Shown one piece after another: positions 6,592 to 17,672 of a stretch of 20,108 nucleotides of DNA (within the stretch, counting starts at the first letter, position 1; each line of letters opens with the position of its first letter). The notes under the pieces were generated by a model. The model had not been told where the DNA came from. It saw nothing but the letters and a program-made list of their open reading frames with translations, and ran no database searches. Source of the stretch: a virus; IMG/VR virus record IMGVR_UViG_3300043446_000422, positions 1 to 20,108 of that record, one strand, 5' to 3'. The position numbers and the translations under genes were made by a program.

Positions 6592-7125
6592 ATGCAGATT
6601 GATACATTTAAGGGGTTACTAGGAAATGGTGGTGCAAGACCAAACCAATTTAGAGTTACTCTAAACACACCAGATGGTACATTAGGCGACTATAACCTTC
6701 TGGTAACTGGTGCATCTTTGCCATCATCCAATATTAATCCAACAATTCTTCAGTATCGCGGTCGCGAAATCAAGTTTGCTGGTGAGCGCACATTTGATCC
6801 ATTCACAGTTACAATCGTCAATGATACCAACTTTACGGTACATGGCGCACTGATGACTTGGATGGACATGATCAATGGCGCACAGTCAAACGAAGGTGTT
6901 ACCGATTGGCAGTCATACACACAGCAACTTGTTGTTGAGCAACTTACCAGAGAAGCTGGTGATTCTGAGACAGCAATTGCTACATACATTCTAGAAGGTG
7001 CATTCCCAATCAACGTTTCTGAAATTGCACTAAACTATGGACAGAATGATGTTATTGAAGAGTTTTCTGTAACTTTCCAATATCAATATTATACATATCA
7101 GAGCGCCAGCGGTCAAGCTGGTTAA
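6592..7125 (+). CDS. 19: Tail tube protein gp19
   Basis: 177 residues; T4 gp19 is 163. It polymerises into the inner tail tube through which DNA passes, under the gp18 sheath. Landmarks: N-terminal FKGLLGNGGARPNQFRVTL, LLVTGASLPSSNI, YRGREIKFAGERTFDPFTVTIVNDTNF, and the C-terminal strand EEFSVTFQYQYYTYQ, all typical of the T4 tube fold. The ATG has ribosome site AGGAG just upstream. The gene follows sheath gene 18 after a 36-base gap with a possible weak late promoter, and a hairpin directly follows its stop. Codon use is fairly strong-expression type, as expected of a multi-copy tail part. Confidence 0.95.
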   Translation: MQIDTFKGLLGNGGARPNQFRVTLNTPDGTLGDYNLLVTGASLPSSNINPTILQYRGREIKFAGERTFDPFTVTIVNDTNFTVHGALMTWMDMINGAQSNEGVTDWQSYTQQLVVEQLTREAGDSETAIATYILEGAFPINVSEIALNYGQNDVIEEFSVTFQYQYYTYQSASGQAG

Positions 7126-12094: not shown

Positions 12095-13381
12095 ATGTTT
12101 CTTTCAGAGCAATTACAGAAAAAGTGGGAACCCGTTCTAAACCATTCCGGTCTAGGCGAGATCAAGGACCCTTACAAGAGAGCCGTTACTGCGGTTGTTC
12201 TTGAGAACCAGGAAAAGGCTCTTCGCGAAGAGAAGGCCGCCCTGTTTGAGGCAGTCCCAGCAAACAACATCGCAGGTTCGGGCGCTTCGGCAATCGACCG
12301 CTATGATCCAATCCTCATTTCGCTAGTACGCCGTTCGCTGCCAAATCTTATGGCATATGACGTTGCTGGCGTTCAGCCAATGACTGGCCCAACTGGCTTG
12401 ATCTTCGCTATGAAGTCACGCTATGGTTCACAGACTGGCGATGAAGCACTCTTCAACGAAGCCGATACAGACTTCTCGGGTACTGGCACACACGCCGGTT
12501 CGAACCCAGTCAACGGCACATACACAACTGGTACTGGCCTGGACACTTCTGATGCAGAAGCCCTCGGCACAGACGGTGGTGGTTCGTTCGGCGAGATGGC
12601 ATTCAGCATCGAAAAGACAACTGTAACTGCTAAGAGCCGCGCGCTCAAGGCTGAGTACACTGTCGAACTGGCACAGGATCTTAAGGCTATTCACGGTCTT
12701 GATGCTGAGTCGGAACTGTCGAACATTCTTTCGCAGGAAATTCTAAACGAAATCAACCGCGAAGTCATTCGTACAATCTACAAGGTTGCTAAGACTGGTG
12801 CTGCTTCAACAGCTACACCTGGCACATTCGACCTTGACGTTGACTCGAACGGCCGTTGGTCAGTTGAGCGTTTCAAGGGTCTGCTGTTCAACATCGAACG
12901 TGATGCCAACGTAATCGCACAAGATACACGCCGCGGCAAGGGTAACTTCATCATCTGTTCGTCAGATGTTGCTGCTGCTCTCGCAATGGCTGGTGTTCTT
13001 GACACAGGCCGCGCTCTGCAGGGTTCACCTGCTCTTGAGTCGGACGACACAGGCAATACCTTCGTTGGTACAATCAGCGGTAAGAAGGTTTACATCGATC
13101 CTTACTCAGCTAACACTGGCGCTGCATCGCAGTTCTACGTTGTTGGTTATAAGGGCGCTTCGGCATACGATGCTGGTCTCTTCTACTGCCCATACGTTCC
13201 ACTCCAGATGGTTCGCGCAATCGATCCTTCGAGCTTCCAGCCAAAGATCGGCTTCAAGACTCGCTACGGCATGATTGCTAACCCATTCGTAGTAGACGGT
13301 TCAGGCAACACTGATGCGGATAACTTCACAGCTAACCGCAACCAGTACTACCGCCGCGTCAAGGTTACAAACCTGATGTAA
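12095..13381 (+). CDS. 23: Major capsid protein gp23
   Basis: 428 residues; T4 gp23 is 521 and exoT-even versions are shorter. It builds the hexamers of the HK97-fold head. The N-terminus (MFLSEQLQKKWEPVLNH ... YKRAVTAVVLENQEKAL) is the assembly domain removed by gp21; LFEA at residues 50-53 fits the L-x-E|A cleavage rule, giving a mature start at A53 and 376 residues. Core landmarks: LVRRSLPNLMAYDVAGVQPMTGPTG, AEYTVELAQDLKAIHGLDAE, FIICSSDVAAALAMAG, and the C-terminal RNQYYRRVKVTNLM. Codon use is distinct from neighbours (almost all CGC/CGT arginines, many TCG serines, higher G+C), a sign of very high expression. A strong terminator follows. Confidence 0.98.
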   Translation: MFLSEQLQKKWEPVLNHSGLGEIKDPYKRAVTAVVLENQEKALREEKAALFEAVPANNIAGSGASAIDRYDPILISLVRRSLPNLMAYDVAGVQPMTGPTGLIFAMKSRYGSQTGDEALFNEADTDFSGTGTHAGSNPVNGTYTTGTGLDTSDAEALGTDGGGSFGEMAFSIEKTTVTAKSRALKAEYTVELAQDLKAIHGLDAESELSNILSQEILNEINREVIRTIYKVAKTGAASTATPGTFDLDVDSNGRWSVERFKGLLFNIERDANVIAQDTRRGKGNFIICSSDVAAALAMAGVLDTGRALQGSPALESDDTGNTFVGTISGKKVYIDPYSANTGAASQFYVVGYKGASAYDAGLFYCPYVPLQMVRAIDPSSFQPKIGFKTRYGMIANPFVVDGSGNTDADNFTANRNQYYRRVKVTNLM

Positions 13382-13414: not shown

Positions 13415-13443
13415 GGGGGAGCAGAAATGCTCCCCCTTTTTTT
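13415..13443 (+). terminator. Intrinsic terminator after gene 23
   Basis: Perfect 8-bp stem GGGGGAGC / GCTCCCCC with loop AGAAAT, followed by seven T (13437-13443). This is the only clear rho-independent terminator in the window and it closes the capsid operon before the next late promoter. Confidence 0.95.
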
Positions 13444-13482: not shown

Positions 13483-14076
13483 ATGACATTGAATACAAAA
13501 TTAGGTATAGAAGAAGGCAACTGGGAAAACAGGCAACCTTCTAACTTGAATTATCTAAAGCCAAATGGATTTAAATTTCAAGTACATAATCTACCTAACG
13601 TATCATACTTCTGTCAAGCAGCAAACATTCCATCTATTAGTTTAGGTGACGCTGTTGCTCCTACTCCATTGTCCGATCTACACTTTCCTGGTGAAAAATT
13701 AATTTATGGTGAGATACTATTAAGATTTCTAGTTCAAGAAAATATGGCAAACTTTATTGAGCTATATAAATGGTTAATTGGACTTGGATTTCCAAATGAT
13801 AGAAAAGAATATACTGATTACAATAGTAAACAAAATTATAGATTTCCATATTCTAGACCTAGCAGAGCTTTGGGATTAGCAAACTTTTCTGATGCCGATC
13901 TATTCATTCTAGATTCCAATAATACTCCTGTGGTAAAATTCACATTCTACGATATCTTTCCAACAAACCTACAATCTTTAGAATTTGATGTCCAAATGCA
14001 GTCTGCGGACGAGTACCTCATAGGAATGGCCACATTTAAATATAGACATTATACAATAGAACTCTTGACAACATAG
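13483..14076 (+). CDS. Tail-tube-fold protein, probably tail completion protein gp3
   Basis: 197 residues. The central part (KFQVHNLPNVSYFCQAANIP, GDAVAPTPLSDLHFPGEKL, YGEILLRFLVQENMANFIEL, YKWLIGLGFP) and the C-terminal strand pair (FPTNLQSLEFDVQMQSADE, ATFKYRHYTIEL) follow the pattern of tail-tube-like proteins. In marine T4-like phages the gene between 23 and uvsY is, as I recall, annotated as gp3, the tail completion and sheath-stabilising protein that ends the tube; T4 gp3 is about 176 residues. I could not verify this by alignment; an alternative is another tube-fold baseplate component. The late promoter at 13449 agrees with a virion role. Ribosome site AGGA lies before the ATG. Confidence 0.7.
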   Translation: MTLNTKLGIEEGNWENRQPSNLNYLKPNGFKFQVHNLPNVSYFCQAANIPSISLGDAVAPTPLSDLHFPGEKLIYGEILLRFLVQENMANFIELYKWLIGLGFPNDRKEYTDYNSKQNYRFPYSRPSRALGLANFSDADLFILDSNNTPVVKFTFYDIFPTNLQSLEFDVQMQSADEYLIGMATFKYRHYTIELLTT

Positions 14077-14093
14077 AAAAAGTGTGTTATGAT
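14065..14093 (+). promoter_or_regulatory. Consensus host sigma70 promoter upstream of uvsY
   Basis: -35 TTGACA (14065-14070), 17-base spacer, -10 TATGAT (14088-14093) with an extended TGT just before it. The -35 overlaps the end of the preceding gene. RNA would start near 14100, leaving a leader of about 20 bases with the GGTGGAG ribosome site. Confidence 0.85.
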
Positions 14094-14120: not shown

Positions 14121-14561
14121 ATGAAATTGACCGAAATACAAGATGAGTGGCAGAAAGACTGCAAAATTAATGAATTGGATCTCGGTAAGTCTGCAATTAA
14201 GACTGCCGAACTTCACGCAAAGTATCTAAGTGTACTATCAAATACCAAACTTCAATTGCGCAAAGCTGAAGCCGACTACTATCGTCTTCGTAGGGACAAG
14301 ACTAAATATCTACGCGGAGAGATGACTCAAGAAGAGTTGGAAGAAAGAGGATGGGATCAATATCAAGGTCTCAAGCCACTAAAAAATGATATGGAAGACA
14401 GATTGAATTGTGATGAAGACATCATTAGATCAATTGACAAAGTTGAGTATCTTAAAACAATGCTTCTACAGGTAGAATATATTATGAAATCACTTAATAG
14501 CAGAACTTGGGATATCAAGAATGCAATTGAGTGGACAAAGTTTACGAATGGATTAATGTGA
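14121..14561 (+). CDS. uvsY: Recombination mediator UvsY
   Basis: 146 residues; T4 UvsY is 137. UvsY hexamers bind single-stranded DNA, displace gp32 and load the UvsX recombinase during recombination-dependent replication. The sequence is almost entirely helical and charged: MKLTEIQDEWQKDCKINELD, LHAKYLSVLSNTKLQLRKAE and the C-terminal KTMLLQVEYIMKSLNSRTWD with NAIEWTKFTNG, all typical of this family. The ribosome site GGTGGAG is strong. It has its own sigma70-type promoter and also receives late read-through. Its stop overlaps the uvsW start, so the two are coupled as in many T4-like phages. Confidence 0.93.
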   Translation: MKLTEIQDEWQKDCKINELDLGKSAIKTAELHAKYLSVLSNTKLQLRKAEADYYRLRRDKTKYLRGEMTQEELEERGWDQYQGLKPLKNDMEDRLNCDEDIIRSIDKVEYLKTMLLQVEYIMKSLNSRTWDIKNAIEWTKFTNGLM

Positions 14562-16045
14562 CCACACTAACAGTAACCAAAAAGAATGAAGTGTATCTTA
14601 CAGTAGATTGTGACCCAGGTACGGCACAAGAACTGTCGGACCATTTCACATTTGAAGTTCCTGGTGCCCGCTTTATGCCTACCTATCGTGCAAAACTTTG
14701 GGATGGTAAAGCAAGACTATATAACATATGGACAAAAGAATTGTATGTAGGTCTTTTGCCATATCTTAGAGAATTTTGTAAGACTTTAGAATATACCCTA
14801 GAAGAAAATATTGTTCCCGTAGGTCATCCTATTACGATTGAAGATGTACGAGACTTTGCACATAGATTAAATTTACACAGTCAAGGTAAACCAATTTACC
14901 CTAAAGACTATCAGTTAAGTGCCGTAAGACATGCTATTAGAACTGGGAGAACTTTGCTACTTTCTCCTACTGCATCCGGCAAATCTCTAATGATCTATAT
15001 GCTGATGAGATACCATCAACTACATAAAAGAAAACAACTCATTGTGGTACCTACCACATCTCTAGTTGAACAGATGTATAAAGACTTTCAAGACTATTCT
15101 TCTGAAGACAACTGGGTAGCATCTGAAAATTGTTCCAGAATTTATTCTGGACACGAAAAAACAAATGATGCAAATATAGTTATTTCAACATGGCAATCTA
15201 TCTACAAACTACCAAAAAAGTTTTTTGACGCCTTCGATGTCATCTATGGAGATGAGGCACATTTATTTAAGGCAAAAAGTCTAACAACAATTTTTAATAA
15301 ATGCACCACAACAAAATTTAGAATAGGTACCACAGGTACACTAGACGGTACCAAAACTCATAAGCTAATACTTGAGGGTTTATTTGGTACTGTACTGAAG
15401 GTAACATCTACGAAACAACTTATGGATCAAGGTGATGTTGCCGACTTAGATATCTCTTGCTTGATTTTAGATTACTCAGATGAAAGTAAAAAGCTGGTAA
15501 GCAAGATGACATATCAAGAAGAAATGGATTGGTTGATAAGCAATCCAAAAAGAAACAATGTTATTAAAAATCTAGCTACAACACAAAAAGGTAATACTCT
15601 AGTGCTGTTTCAGTATGTGGAAAAGCACGGTGAAGTATTGTACAATTTAATAGATAAAAAGGTTGGAGAAACTAGAAAAGTATTTTTTGTTCACGGTGGA
15701 ACAGATACCGAACAAAGAGAAAACATTCGAGCAATCACAGAGAATGAGCAAGATGCAATCATCATTGCTTCATATGGCACGTTTTCAACTGGTATAAATA
15801 TTAGAAACCTACACAATGTTATATTTGCGTCATCAAGTAAAAGCAGAATTCGTAATCTTCAAAGTATTGGTAGGGGTTTAAGAAAAGGTACAGAAAAAAC
15901 TAAATGTAATCTTTTTGATATTGGCGATGACTTATCGTGGAAGTCTAAAAAGAATTACACACTTCAACATATGGTTGAACGCATCAAGATATATAATGAA
16001 GAAGGTTTCACTTACAAACTAGTTAGGATAAACATAAATGACTGA
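14558..16045 (+). CDS. uvsW: UvsW DNA/RNA-DNA helicase
   Basis: 495 residues from GTG 14558 (T4 UvsW about 500). It is a superfamily 2 helicase that unwinds R-loops and branched DNA, shifting T4 replication from origin- to recombination-dependent mode. Motifs in this numbering: Q-like YPKDYQ about 114-119, Walker A SPTASGKS at 136-143, DEAH at 232-235, TTGT about 258-261, and motif VI QSIGRGLRKG at 435-444. The small N-terminal domain (residues about 1-85, with FTFEVPGARFMP and LWDGKARLY) is typical. The open frame continues to a GTG at 14531, but GTG 14558 aligns better with relatives and overlaps the uvsY stop. Its 3' end overlaps the next gene by 8 bases. Confidence 0.95.
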   Translation: MTTLTVTKKNEVYLTVDCDPGTAQELSDHFTFEVPGARFMPTYRAKLWDGKARLYNIWTKELYVGLLPYLREFCKTLEYTLEENIVPVGHPITIEDVRDFAHRLNLHSQGKPIYPKDYQLSAVRHAIRTGRTLLLSPTASGKSLMIYMLMRYHQLHKRKQLIVVPTTSLVEQMYKDFQDYSSEDNWVASENCSRIYSGHEKTNDANIVISTWQSIYKLPKKFFDAFDVIYGDEAHLFKAKSLTTIFNKCTTTKFRIGTTGTLDGTKTHKLILEGLFGTVLKVTSTKQLMDQGDVADLDISCLILDYSDESKKLVSKMTYQEEMDWLISNPKRNNVIKNLATTQKGNTLVLFQYVEKHGEVLYNLIDKKVGETRKVFFVHGGTDTEQRENIRAITENEQDAIIIASYGTFSTGINIRNLHNVIFASSSKSRIRNLQSIGRGLRKGTEKTKCNLFDIGDDLSWKSKKNYTLQHMVERIKIYNEEGFTYKLVRININD

Positions 16046-16403
16046 TGCTAAAGTTGTACTTTTAAAACAGGGAATTTGCCTTCTAGGACAATTAGAAGAA
16101 GAAACTAAAGGTACGGGTCTTGTTTGGATTATTCAACCCGTGGAAATAGAGAAGATCCCAGTAGTCAACGGCAATCAAGTGGGAGAAACATTCTCGTTTA
16201 AACCTTGGATGGCATTATCCTCAGATGAAAAATTCATTCTCTCTAAGAGAGACATTCTTACATTCTGTAATCCAGATGCCAAGATTTTAAACCACTATAA
16301 AAATTTTGTAGCTGAGTATTACGAATCAAATAGAGAAGTTGCAGTTTCTAGAGAAGAACAAGAAGAACAACTAGAGAGTCTTTACTCAGAGACAGTTCAC
16401 TAA
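16038..16403 (+). CDS. Small conserved-looking protein after uvsW, possibly Sm-like fold
   Basis: 121 residues, no recognised enzyme motif. The N-terminal strand pattern (KVVLLKQGICLLGQLEEE, LVWIIQPVEIEKIP, then FSFKPWMALSSDEKFILSKRDILTF) resembles the five-strand Sm/LSm fold, where a K-x-G-x-x-L-x-G turn is usual; the C-terminal 40 residues are helical and acidic. I recall similar proteins in this position, between uvsW and 55, in cyanophages, without an assigned function. RNA binding is only a guess. ATG overlaps the uvsW stop (ATGACTGA), with AGGATAA as ribosome site. Two short inverted repeats cover its stop codon and the bases after. Confidence 0.6.
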   Translation: MTDAKVVLLKQGICLLGQLEEETKGTGLVWIIQPVEIEKIPVVNGNQVGETFSFKPWMALSSDEKFILSKRDILTFCNPDAKILNHYKNFVAEYYESNREVAVSREEQEEQLESLYSETVH

Positions 16404-16440
16404 TGAACTTTAAAGGTATTCTTTAAGCTGCTACACAGCC

Positions 16441-16469
16441 ATTGTACCATAAAAAACACACCTTGTCAA
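16441..16469 (-). promoter_or_regulatory. Leftward sigma70-like promoter, antisense to the uvsW end
   Basis: Read on the - strand: TTGACA (16469-16464), 17-base spacer, TACAAT (16446-16441) preceded by TGG, an extended -10. The -35 is perfect and the -10 has one mismatch. RNA would start near 16434 and run antisense into the 121-residue gene and uvsW. No - strand gene is visible downstream. Confidence 0.5.
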
Positions 16470-16480
16470 GTAAGTTTTTG

Positions 16481-16509
16481 TTGACAAACGAAAAAAATTT
16501 TAGTATGAT
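16481..16509 (+). promoter_or_regulatory. Consensus host sigma70 promoter of gene 55
   Basis: TTGACA (16481-16486), 17-base spacer, TATGAT (16504-16509): the same hexamers and spacing as the uvsY promoter. RNA would start near 16516, leaving an 18-base leader with TTGGAG before ATG 16534. Confidence 0.87.
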
Positions 16510-16533
16510 CACATCATGAATCTTGGAGAAAAA

Positions 16534-17097
16534 ATGAAATCTATTCCTAAAAATGCGCACTATGTAAGCAATAGTGACTTTCTGAAAGCAATGATTGAGT
16601 ATAAGGCAAAGGTTAACGCTGCTAAAGCAGAGGGTAAACCTAAGCCTCCGGTCACGAACTATATTGGCGAGTGCTTCCTTAAGATTGCAAATCACTTGGC
16701 ATACAAGTCAAACTTTATAAACTATACATATCGCGATGAGATGATTCTTGATGGAATAGAAAATTGTATTACATATATTGACAATTTTGACCCAGATAAG
16801 TCGAGCAATCCTTTTGCTTACTTTACACAGATTACCTATTATGCATTCATTCGAAGAATTCAGAAAGAAAAGAAGCAACAGGTAATCAAGTCGAAGTACA
16901 TCAAGAGCTTAGATTTTAGTGATCTTATCACACAAGACCATGACGGATCAGATTATAGCAATGAGTTTATCGAATTCATTAAAAAGCAGTTAGACACTGC
17001 CGAAATGGATAAAGATGTGGAGCCAGAAAAGAAAAAAGTTACTAGGCGACCAAAATATTTTGATAAACCTCTTGACCCAGGCTTAGATATCGACTAA
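16534..17097 (+). CDS. 55: Late-transcription sigma factor gp55
   Basis: 187 residues; T4 gp55 is 185. It replaces host sigma70 on RNA polymerase and recognises TATAAATA late promoters, such as those in this window. Family landmarks: NAHYVSNSDFLKAMIEYK, a TNYIGECFLKIANHLAYKSNF helix, EMILDGIENCITYIDNFDP, and the core-binding/DNA-binding stretch NPFAYFTQITYYAFIRRIQKEKK. I chose ATG 16534 because GGAG lies five bases before it and the promoter start site falls at about 16516, where another in-frame ATG would be leaderless. The C-terminus ends PLDPGLDID rather than the SLDFLYE-like clamp-binding end of T4 gp55. A sigma70 promoter drives it. Confidence 0.94.
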   Translation: MKSIPKNAHYVSNSDFLKAMIEYKAKVNAAKAEGKPKPPVTNYIGECFLKIANHLAYKSNFINYTYRDEMILDGIENCITYIDNFDPDKSSNPFAYFTQITYYAFIRRIQKEKKQQVIKSKYIKSLDFSDLITQDHDGSDYSNEFIEFIKKQLDTAEMDKDVEPEKKKVTRRPKYFDKPLDPGLDID

Positions 17098-17126: not shown

Positions 17127-17672
17127 ATGTCCAAAGCCACAGATCCAACTCAAACACATATCATGGTCGACCTCGAGACGTTGAGTACGAGGGCTAATGC
17201 TACCATCGTATCTATTGGTGCTGTAAAGTTCAATCTTCAAGATGGTGTCTTAGATACGTTCTACATTAACGTAGATGCAAAATCTTGTAAAGAATTTGGT
17301 TTACATGTTTCTAAAGATACTGTCAAGTGGTGGTCTGAACAAAAGCCCGAGGCTCTAAAGGCCCTTATGGTAGATCCAAAACCTCTTGATGTTGCCCTAG
17401 AAAAATTTATCGAATGGATTGGACCCAAAGAAATCATGATTTGGGGTAATGGCGCATCATTTGACGTAACCATTCTAGAGGAAGCCATGTCTGCTATCGG
17501 TATTAAAAAGTATCCGTGGTTTCATTGGAACATCATGTGTTTCAGAACAGTGATGAATCTTATGGGACTAAGAAATTCCGATATTCGTAAAGCAGAAAAT
17601 GACTTGCATCACCATGCACTTGATGATGCCATGAGCCAGACAAACACACTCTTGAGGATTCTAAAGTCTTGA
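17127..17672 (+). CDS. DEDDh 3'-5' exonuclease, DexA / Rv2179c-like
   Basis: 181 residues. Exo motifs are clear: VDLET with D15 and E17, WGNGASFDVTIL with D113, and HHHALDDA with H162 and D167. The segment after motif I (IVSIGAVKF) and the VSKDTVKWWSEQKPEA stretch match the Rv2179c-like family, which includes T4 DexA (227 residues), a DNA exonuclease; other members act on RNA. The substrate here is not decided by sequence. It is cytosolic with no signal. Ribosome site AGAGG precedes the ATG. It lies between 55 and 47 and its TGA overlaps the TTG start of 47, so it probably works with the recombination nucleases in DNA processing or host DNA degradation. Confidence 0.85.
   Translation: MSKATDPTQTHIMVDLETLSTRANATIVSIGAVKFNLQDGVLDTFYINVDAKSCKEFGLHVSKDTVKWWSEQKPEALKALMVDPKPLDVALEKFIEWIGPKEIMIWGNGASFDVTILEEAMSAIGIKKYPWFHWNIMCFRTVMNLMGLRNSDIRKAENDLHHHALDDAMSQTNTLLRILKS

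Follow-up and report, generated by a model that had tools for sequence, protein, structure and literature searches.

The window, the whole 20,108-base stretch of a virus record that was analysed, carries uvsY, uvsW, a gene for a 121-residue Sm/LSm-like protein, gp55, gp47 and gp46 in that order. Kyanoviridae such as HTVC008M and Syn9 share the order from uvsY to gp46, small extra genes in those phages excepted. Relative to them the window has an insert of its own between gp55 and gp47, an Rv2179c-like 3′–5′ exonuclease gene (17127–17672; Pfam E 5e-46), which is unannotated there in HTVC008M and Syn9. The features around the boundary between the Sm-like gene and gp55 are:

14531–16045, plus strand: uvsW helicase gene; overlaps the start of the Sm-like gene and lies in the path of any long leftward RNA
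16038–16403, plus strand: gene for the 121-residue Sm/LSm-like protein, the putative antisense target; profile match to PDB 3by7
16404–16434, minus strand: stretch where the predicted antisense RNA would begin, ahead of the Sm-like gene; placed from the −10 element
16427–16439, no strand assigned: short palindrome around the predicted leftward start, plus strand GCTG-CTACA-CAGC, holding a conserved TGT
16441–16469, minus strand: leftward sigma70-type promoter TTGACA-N17-TACAAT with extended TG, 11/12 match to consensus; predicted +1 at G 16434
16481–16509, plus strand: rightward promoter TTGACA-N17-TATGAT, 11/12 match to consensus; predicted +1 at about 16516
16534–17097, plus strand: gp55 late sigma factor gene, 187 amino acids; PHROG 234, E 7.4e-61; GGAG at 16525–16528

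The leftward hexamers lie on the plus strand as TGTCAA at 16464–16469 (−35) and at 16441–16446 (−10). The rightward promoter consists of TTGACA (16481–16486), a 17-nt spacer and TATGAT (16504–16509). The preliminary description of this DNA had reported two back-to-back promoters; these are real and far above chance, but its word "perfect" was an overstatement, as each matches 11 of the 12 consensus positions. Six sites of at least 11/12 are observed in the window against a mean of 0.9 in 60 dinucleotide shuffles. No shuffle contained a back-to-back pair with both members at 11/12 or better and −35 boxes at most 40 nt apart; at 10/12, four back-to-back pairs arose. The inverted repeat TTGTCAA-N11-TTGACAA noted earlier is indeed present (16463–16469 and 16481–16487), and consists of the two facing −35 boxes with a spacing that is not conserved. 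The leftward promoter is, as first proposed, oriented antisense to the 121-residue gene and toward uvsW. Its predicted start sits 31 nt beyond the Sm-like stop and about 82 nt from the rightward one. We note that a second pair of 11/12 promoters is found upstream of uvsY, with a rightward TTGACA-17-TATGAT (14065–14093) and a leftward TTAACA-17-TATAAT (14120–14092) whose −10 elements overlap.

The rightward promoter probably starts the gp55 mRNA. An initial placement of the gp55 start at 16516 is probably wrong; this position practically coincides with the predicted start of transcription. The ATG at 16534 is favoured and is probably the true start, because of the GGAG at 16525–16528 and of where the homologue alignments begin: in most of the best 80 loci, homologues align from residues 5–15 of the longer gp55 frame.

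Relatives were collected by three scans with gp55 proteins, the best 80 matches being listed per scan. These 240 loci, five named phages and the window give 246 sequences. Counts refer to distinct sequences unless stated; some contigs were matched by more than one query. L081, which is the window itself, was left out as a locus from the first count of 37 gaps and from the 166-gap and later counts. Among the first 37 distinct gaps (window included), 31 contain a leftward and 29 a rightward promoter at 10/12, where shuffled copies average 2.5 and 2.0. Disappearance of the leftward hexamers from relatives had been named as an observation that would speak against the promoter; they are instead kept at 10/12 or better in 145 of 166 distinct gaps of 40–230 nt upstream of gp55 among the matches listed. 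The rightward promoter reaches at least 10/12 in 143 of these 166 gaps and both promoters do so in 127, again among the matches listed; the count leaves out 13 loci with no detectable upstream gene end and 33 with a gap below 40 nt. The leftward spacer, in 147 distinct sequences, is 17 nt (98), 16 nt (48) or 18 nt (1).

A profile of the Sm-like gene matched 242 of the 246 sequences; the four loci with no detected Sm-like gene are left out of the counts anchored on it, and the genome pieces L247–L253 from the profile counts onward. When the region following the Sm-like stop was searched, a leftward promoter of at least 10/12 was found in 174 of 183 distinct regions (shuffled mean 13.5, maximum 19). 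At 11/12 the count is 138 against 0.9 shuffled, and at 12/12 it is 52 against 0.0. Nine of the 183 regions, a set that leaves out loci where the Sm-like gene abuts gp55, have no leftward promoter. As controls, the region after the gp55 stop has a leftward-type promoter in 13 of 209 cases, and that upstream of uvsY in 10 of 60 distinct regions, so the leftward promoter is not generally conserved there. The position of the promoter follows the Sm-like gene. Of 148 distinct loci with a simple gap (40–230 nt to gp55), 141 have it past the Sm-like stop, and it is still at that stop in 28 of 29 distinct loci where that gene lies more than 230 nt from gp55. A rightward open reading frame of at least 40 codons intervenes in all 29 of the latter, and one of at least 60 codons in 28. 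Of 22 distinct loci whose Sm-like gene adjoins gp55 directly, 1 has the leftward promoter; both promoters are missing in 20 of these 22 and both are present in 144 of the 177 others. The predicted leftward start falls at a median of 24 nt from the Sm-like stop (10–90%: 7–38 nt; 147 distinct sequences), while the spacing of the two −35 boxes varies between −47 and +121 nt (127 gaps). As the start-to-stop distance is anchored and the −35 spacing variable, we assign the leftward promoter to the 3′ end of the Sm-like gene rather than to gp55. The earlier assignment of the pair to gp55 is therefore not borne out, given the 28 of 29 separated loci. Chance does not account for the leftward promoter, nor is it paired with gp55.

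The Sm-like gene abuts or overlaps gp55 in 24 loci (L001–L008, L011–L013, L015, L016, L021, L022, L025, L027, L039, L044, L057, L059, L062, L063 and L074), which usually have neither intergenic promoter and are possibly a different lineage.

The result was replicated with two scans that used Sm-like proteins and were independent of gp55, yielding 121 new loci among the matches listed. Removal of 54 duplicates and of 7 regions too near a contig end left 60 distinct loci; the leftward promoter was found in 60 of 60 and the TGT in 60 of 60. Both queries came from loci that bear the element, so this sample covers clades other than the abutting ones. The cultured set comprised 13 phages; S-RSM4 (match not beside gp55) and S-TIM4 (coordinates unset) were left out. 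Eleven of the 13 have a leftward promoter of at least 10/12: S-PM2, P-SSM3, Bellamy, S-WAM1, S-B43, ACG-2014d, P-RSM1, HTVC008M, Mosig, Syn9 and S-SRM01. ME01 has 9/12, and in Melnitz-2 nothing is found at 9/12 or better. Taken as a sequence signature, the leftward element is very probably a conserved promoter.

The neighbouring protein is only weakly similar to 3by7 when its single 121-residue sequence is compared (E 0.038). In Pfam it passes the cut-off for DUF6561 (34 bits, cut-off 27) and falls just under that for Sm_like (28.6 bits, cut-off 29.4). A profile of 40 sequences matches 3by7 with E 1.7e-14, with entries of the designed TIP60 particle ranking higher. An AlphaFold model built from a 36-sequence alignment has a pLDDT of 90. 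Foldseek with this model returned 3by7 at the top, with TIP60 entries among the next hits and then LSm and Sm proteins. The title of 3by7 describes it as Sm/LSm-like; we take its protein to be of cyanophage origin. Judged by profile and model, the 121-residue protein has an Sm fold, and from this fold it is presumed to bind RNA. Phage records mostly call it "methylamine utilization" (cyanophage relatives) or hypothetical. As a known relative by profile and fold, 3by7 bears on the neighbouring gene and not on the promoter element. The portions of the literature examined contain no mention of an antisense promoter of the 3by7 gene.

A second conserved feature sits at the predicted leftward start. 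Of 83 nonredundant loci, 80 have a TGT within the 3–11 nt past the leftward −10, compared to 1–19 of 83 for stretches of equal width further on. It often lies within a palindrome, and does so in the window, where the palindrome reads GCTG-TGTAG-CAGC leftward. The arms of the palindrome vary from phage to phage yet match each other within a locus: own arms have a mean stem score of 8.65 against 4.22 for hybrids of different loci (maximum 5.88 in 500). A score of at least 10 is reached by 42 of 77 nonredundant loci, and by 11.4 on average and at most 20 for the hybrids. Paired changes in the arms are seen, such as CGACTA/TAGTCG (L060), AGACTA/TAGTCT (L052) and GGACTA/TAGTCC (L245). The stem is weak in 35 of the 77 loci, and many Syn9-like loci have an imperfect palindrome only. 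The loop varies in length, which would be expected of a hairpin in nucleic acid more than of a fixed binding site for a protein. Wobble pairs in the arms favour neither strand. With a start 7 nt past the −10, only RNA that reads rightward through the region would contain the whole hairpin. Promoters at 10/12 or better that precede a TGT number 5 in HTVC008M, 12 in Syn9 and 1 in the window. Among these, only the element at the Sm-like end combines strong hexamers with a strong palindrome in HTVC008M and the window; in Syn9 the palindrome of this element has a score of zero, and better ones are at 58660 (minus strand, 10/12) and 163318 (plus strand, 12/12). Rfam searches of the window and of 16 selected loci found nothing.

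Marine T4-like phages are very abundant, and we found little on gene regulation in them. The reading we put forward is that the leftward element is an antisense promoter, used early by host sigma70 polymerase, which counteracts the uvsW/Sm-like unit or marks its boundary; we consider the chances for and against it to be even. Host sigma70 RNA polymerase would fire the promoter early, some 20–40 nt beyond the Sm-like stop, and the leftward RNA would read back through the Sm-like gene toward uvsW. Collision of polymerases, pairing of sense and antisense RNA, or both, would restrain or delimit the uvsW/Sm-like unit during host-type transcription and separate it from the gp55 replication unit, which has its own promoter. 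The brake would fade once gp55-directed late transcription dominates. That this RNA is made, and its timing, length and effect, we infer from the promoter sequence. In T4, a late promoter drives production of UvsW, which clears R-loops from origins (PMC3016281), so it would make sense for the homologous unit to be braked early. In the window, uvsY, which lies upstream of uvsW, has a sigma70-like promoter of its own (14065–14093), so the unit may not be purely late. Synthetic antisense transcription has been studied in E. coli as a means to change gene expression (PMC4731013), and host antisense RNAs are discussed in a P-HM2 infection study (PMC5082946).

Some observations count against this proposal. 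A leftward intrinsic terminator within 500 nt is seen in 11 of 79 loci (5 of 79 on the other strand) and none is conserved. Simple polymerase collision needs neither the palindrome nor the near-invariant TGT. Codon identity near the 3′ end of the Sm-like gene is raised in some blocks but not in others, which gives no clear sign of added constraint on the coding sequence. In the open-licence literature, searched with limited terms, nothing was recognised as an antisense promoter at the end of an Sm-like gene. The signature suggests an antisense RNA or operon boundary, so far unrecognised, in many marine T4-like phages. A conserved, backward-facing signature tied to an Sm-fold gene would offer a specific and cheap test for family-wide antisense control, and gives a starting point for working out what the phage Sm-like protein does.

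The nearest alternative to antisense opposition is that the leftward transcript acts as a small regulatory RNA together with the Sm-like protein, and not through polymerase collision. It could be a ligand of that protein, or an antisense regulator of a 3′ UTR hairpin (ACA loop on the plus strand). The promoter does lie at the end of a gene for an Sm-fold protein, the near-invariant TGT and covarying palindrome suggest a nucleic-acid structure, and the combination of strong hexamers and strong palindrome is unique to this element in HTVC008M and the window. With +1 at 7 nt after the −10, however, the leftward RNA begins inside the palindrome and cannot fold it; the wobble pairs are neutral between strands, and no terminator bounds a small RNA. 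The lack of an Rfam match, the zero score of the Syn9 palindrome and the weak stem in 35 of 77 nonredundant loci also weigh against this alternative, which we judge unlikely. Slightly less doubtful, and still tentative, is a broader form: an old regulatory RNA module of Kyanoviridae in which the Sm/LSm-like protein and an antisense RNA arising at the 3′ end of its gene would together make an early-to-late switch. The antisense start would then sit in the covarying hairpin and the switch would govern the uvsW/Sm-like unit beside the late sigma gene. Next comes a role in replication, in which the leftward promoter primes DNA synthesis at an R-loop origin like T4 oriF (uvsY) or oriG. These T4 origins likewise have a promoter near recombination genes, and the element is close to uvsY and uvsW. 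Both oriF and oriG depend on a promoter and an unwinding element, their R-loops are substrates that UvsW unwinds, and early T4 synthesis starts mostly in late-transcribed regions (PMC3016281). Unlike at the T4 origins, neither an AT-rich unwinding element nor a skew switch is found at the Sm-like end. The AT fraction is 0.651 in the 100 nt past the start and 0.658 in the 300 nt further upstream in the gene (n = 203), and the minima of detrended cumulative GC- and AT-skew fall 11–25 kb left of gp55 in HTVC008M and Syn9, with no switch at gp55. An origin appears quite improbable.

Three further explanations were rejected. Generic divergent transcription, where polymerase enters a symmetric promoter the wrong way, has a precedent in bidirectional promoters, which are known from all prokaryotes, their starts commonly lying 10, 18 or 23 bp apart (PMC12825309). 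The likeness is that two sigma70 promoters face away from one short region, and in Syn9-like phages the leftward and rightward promoters overlap. In the window the starts are about 82 nt apart, however, and the pair at the Sm-like end has no fixed geometry, its leftward member being tied to the 3′ end of another gene and staying beside the Sm-like gene where gp55 is more distant; we regard this explanation as very improbable. The preliminary description had suggested that the inverted repeat might be an operator timing gp55 production. TTGTCAA-N11-TTGACAA in the window would fit a dimeric regulator, and the 7-nt flanks upstream of the −35 boxes are more alike than in shuffled pairs (3.47 against a mean of 2.23 and a maximum of 2.78 over 500 shuffles; n = 55 distinct pairs with 14 nt or more between them), a likeness that the antisense proposal does not fully account for. 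The half-site spacing of −47 to +121 nt, unconserved among 127 gaps, is incompatible with a fixed operator, and this reading has very little chance of being correct. Least credible of all is that the leftward promoter makes a small mRNA. A purine-rich stretch some 11–19 nt past the TGT start is visible in the column profile of many loci, but leftward open reading frames of at least 40 codons that begin from +8 to +70 occur in 33 of 171 loci against 32 of 171 for the control stretch (+150 to +212), and are no longer than in that control.

A precedent for the proposed antisense promoter is CfrI, the antisense RNA of cyanophage S-PM2 at psbA, which connects psbA with a homing endonuclease gene and whose expression was demonstrated (PMC2984593). 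Both would be antisense transcription in a marine T4-like phage, the element at the Sm-like end being known as promoter sequence only. They differ in locus, psbA in one case and the Sm-like/gp55 boundary in the other, and the promoter form at the latter is conserved in many Kyanoviridae.

Several other features of the window were recorded. The major capsid gene (12095–13381; PHROG 138) is followed at 13415–13436 by a strong hairpin and T run resembling an intrinsic terminator. Two tail-tube-like proteins, both PHROG 45, are encoded at 6592–7125 (E 8e-48) and 13483–14076 (E 9e-33); the second comes after the capsid gene, where HTVC008M is annotated with a tail completion protein. The sequence TATAAATA, which we take to be the T4-type late promoter core, has nine exact sites, at 196, 4714, 4801, 8806, 10853, 12051, 13449, 15793 and 20031. 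All nine are on the plus strand, and shuffles average 1.66 over both strands.
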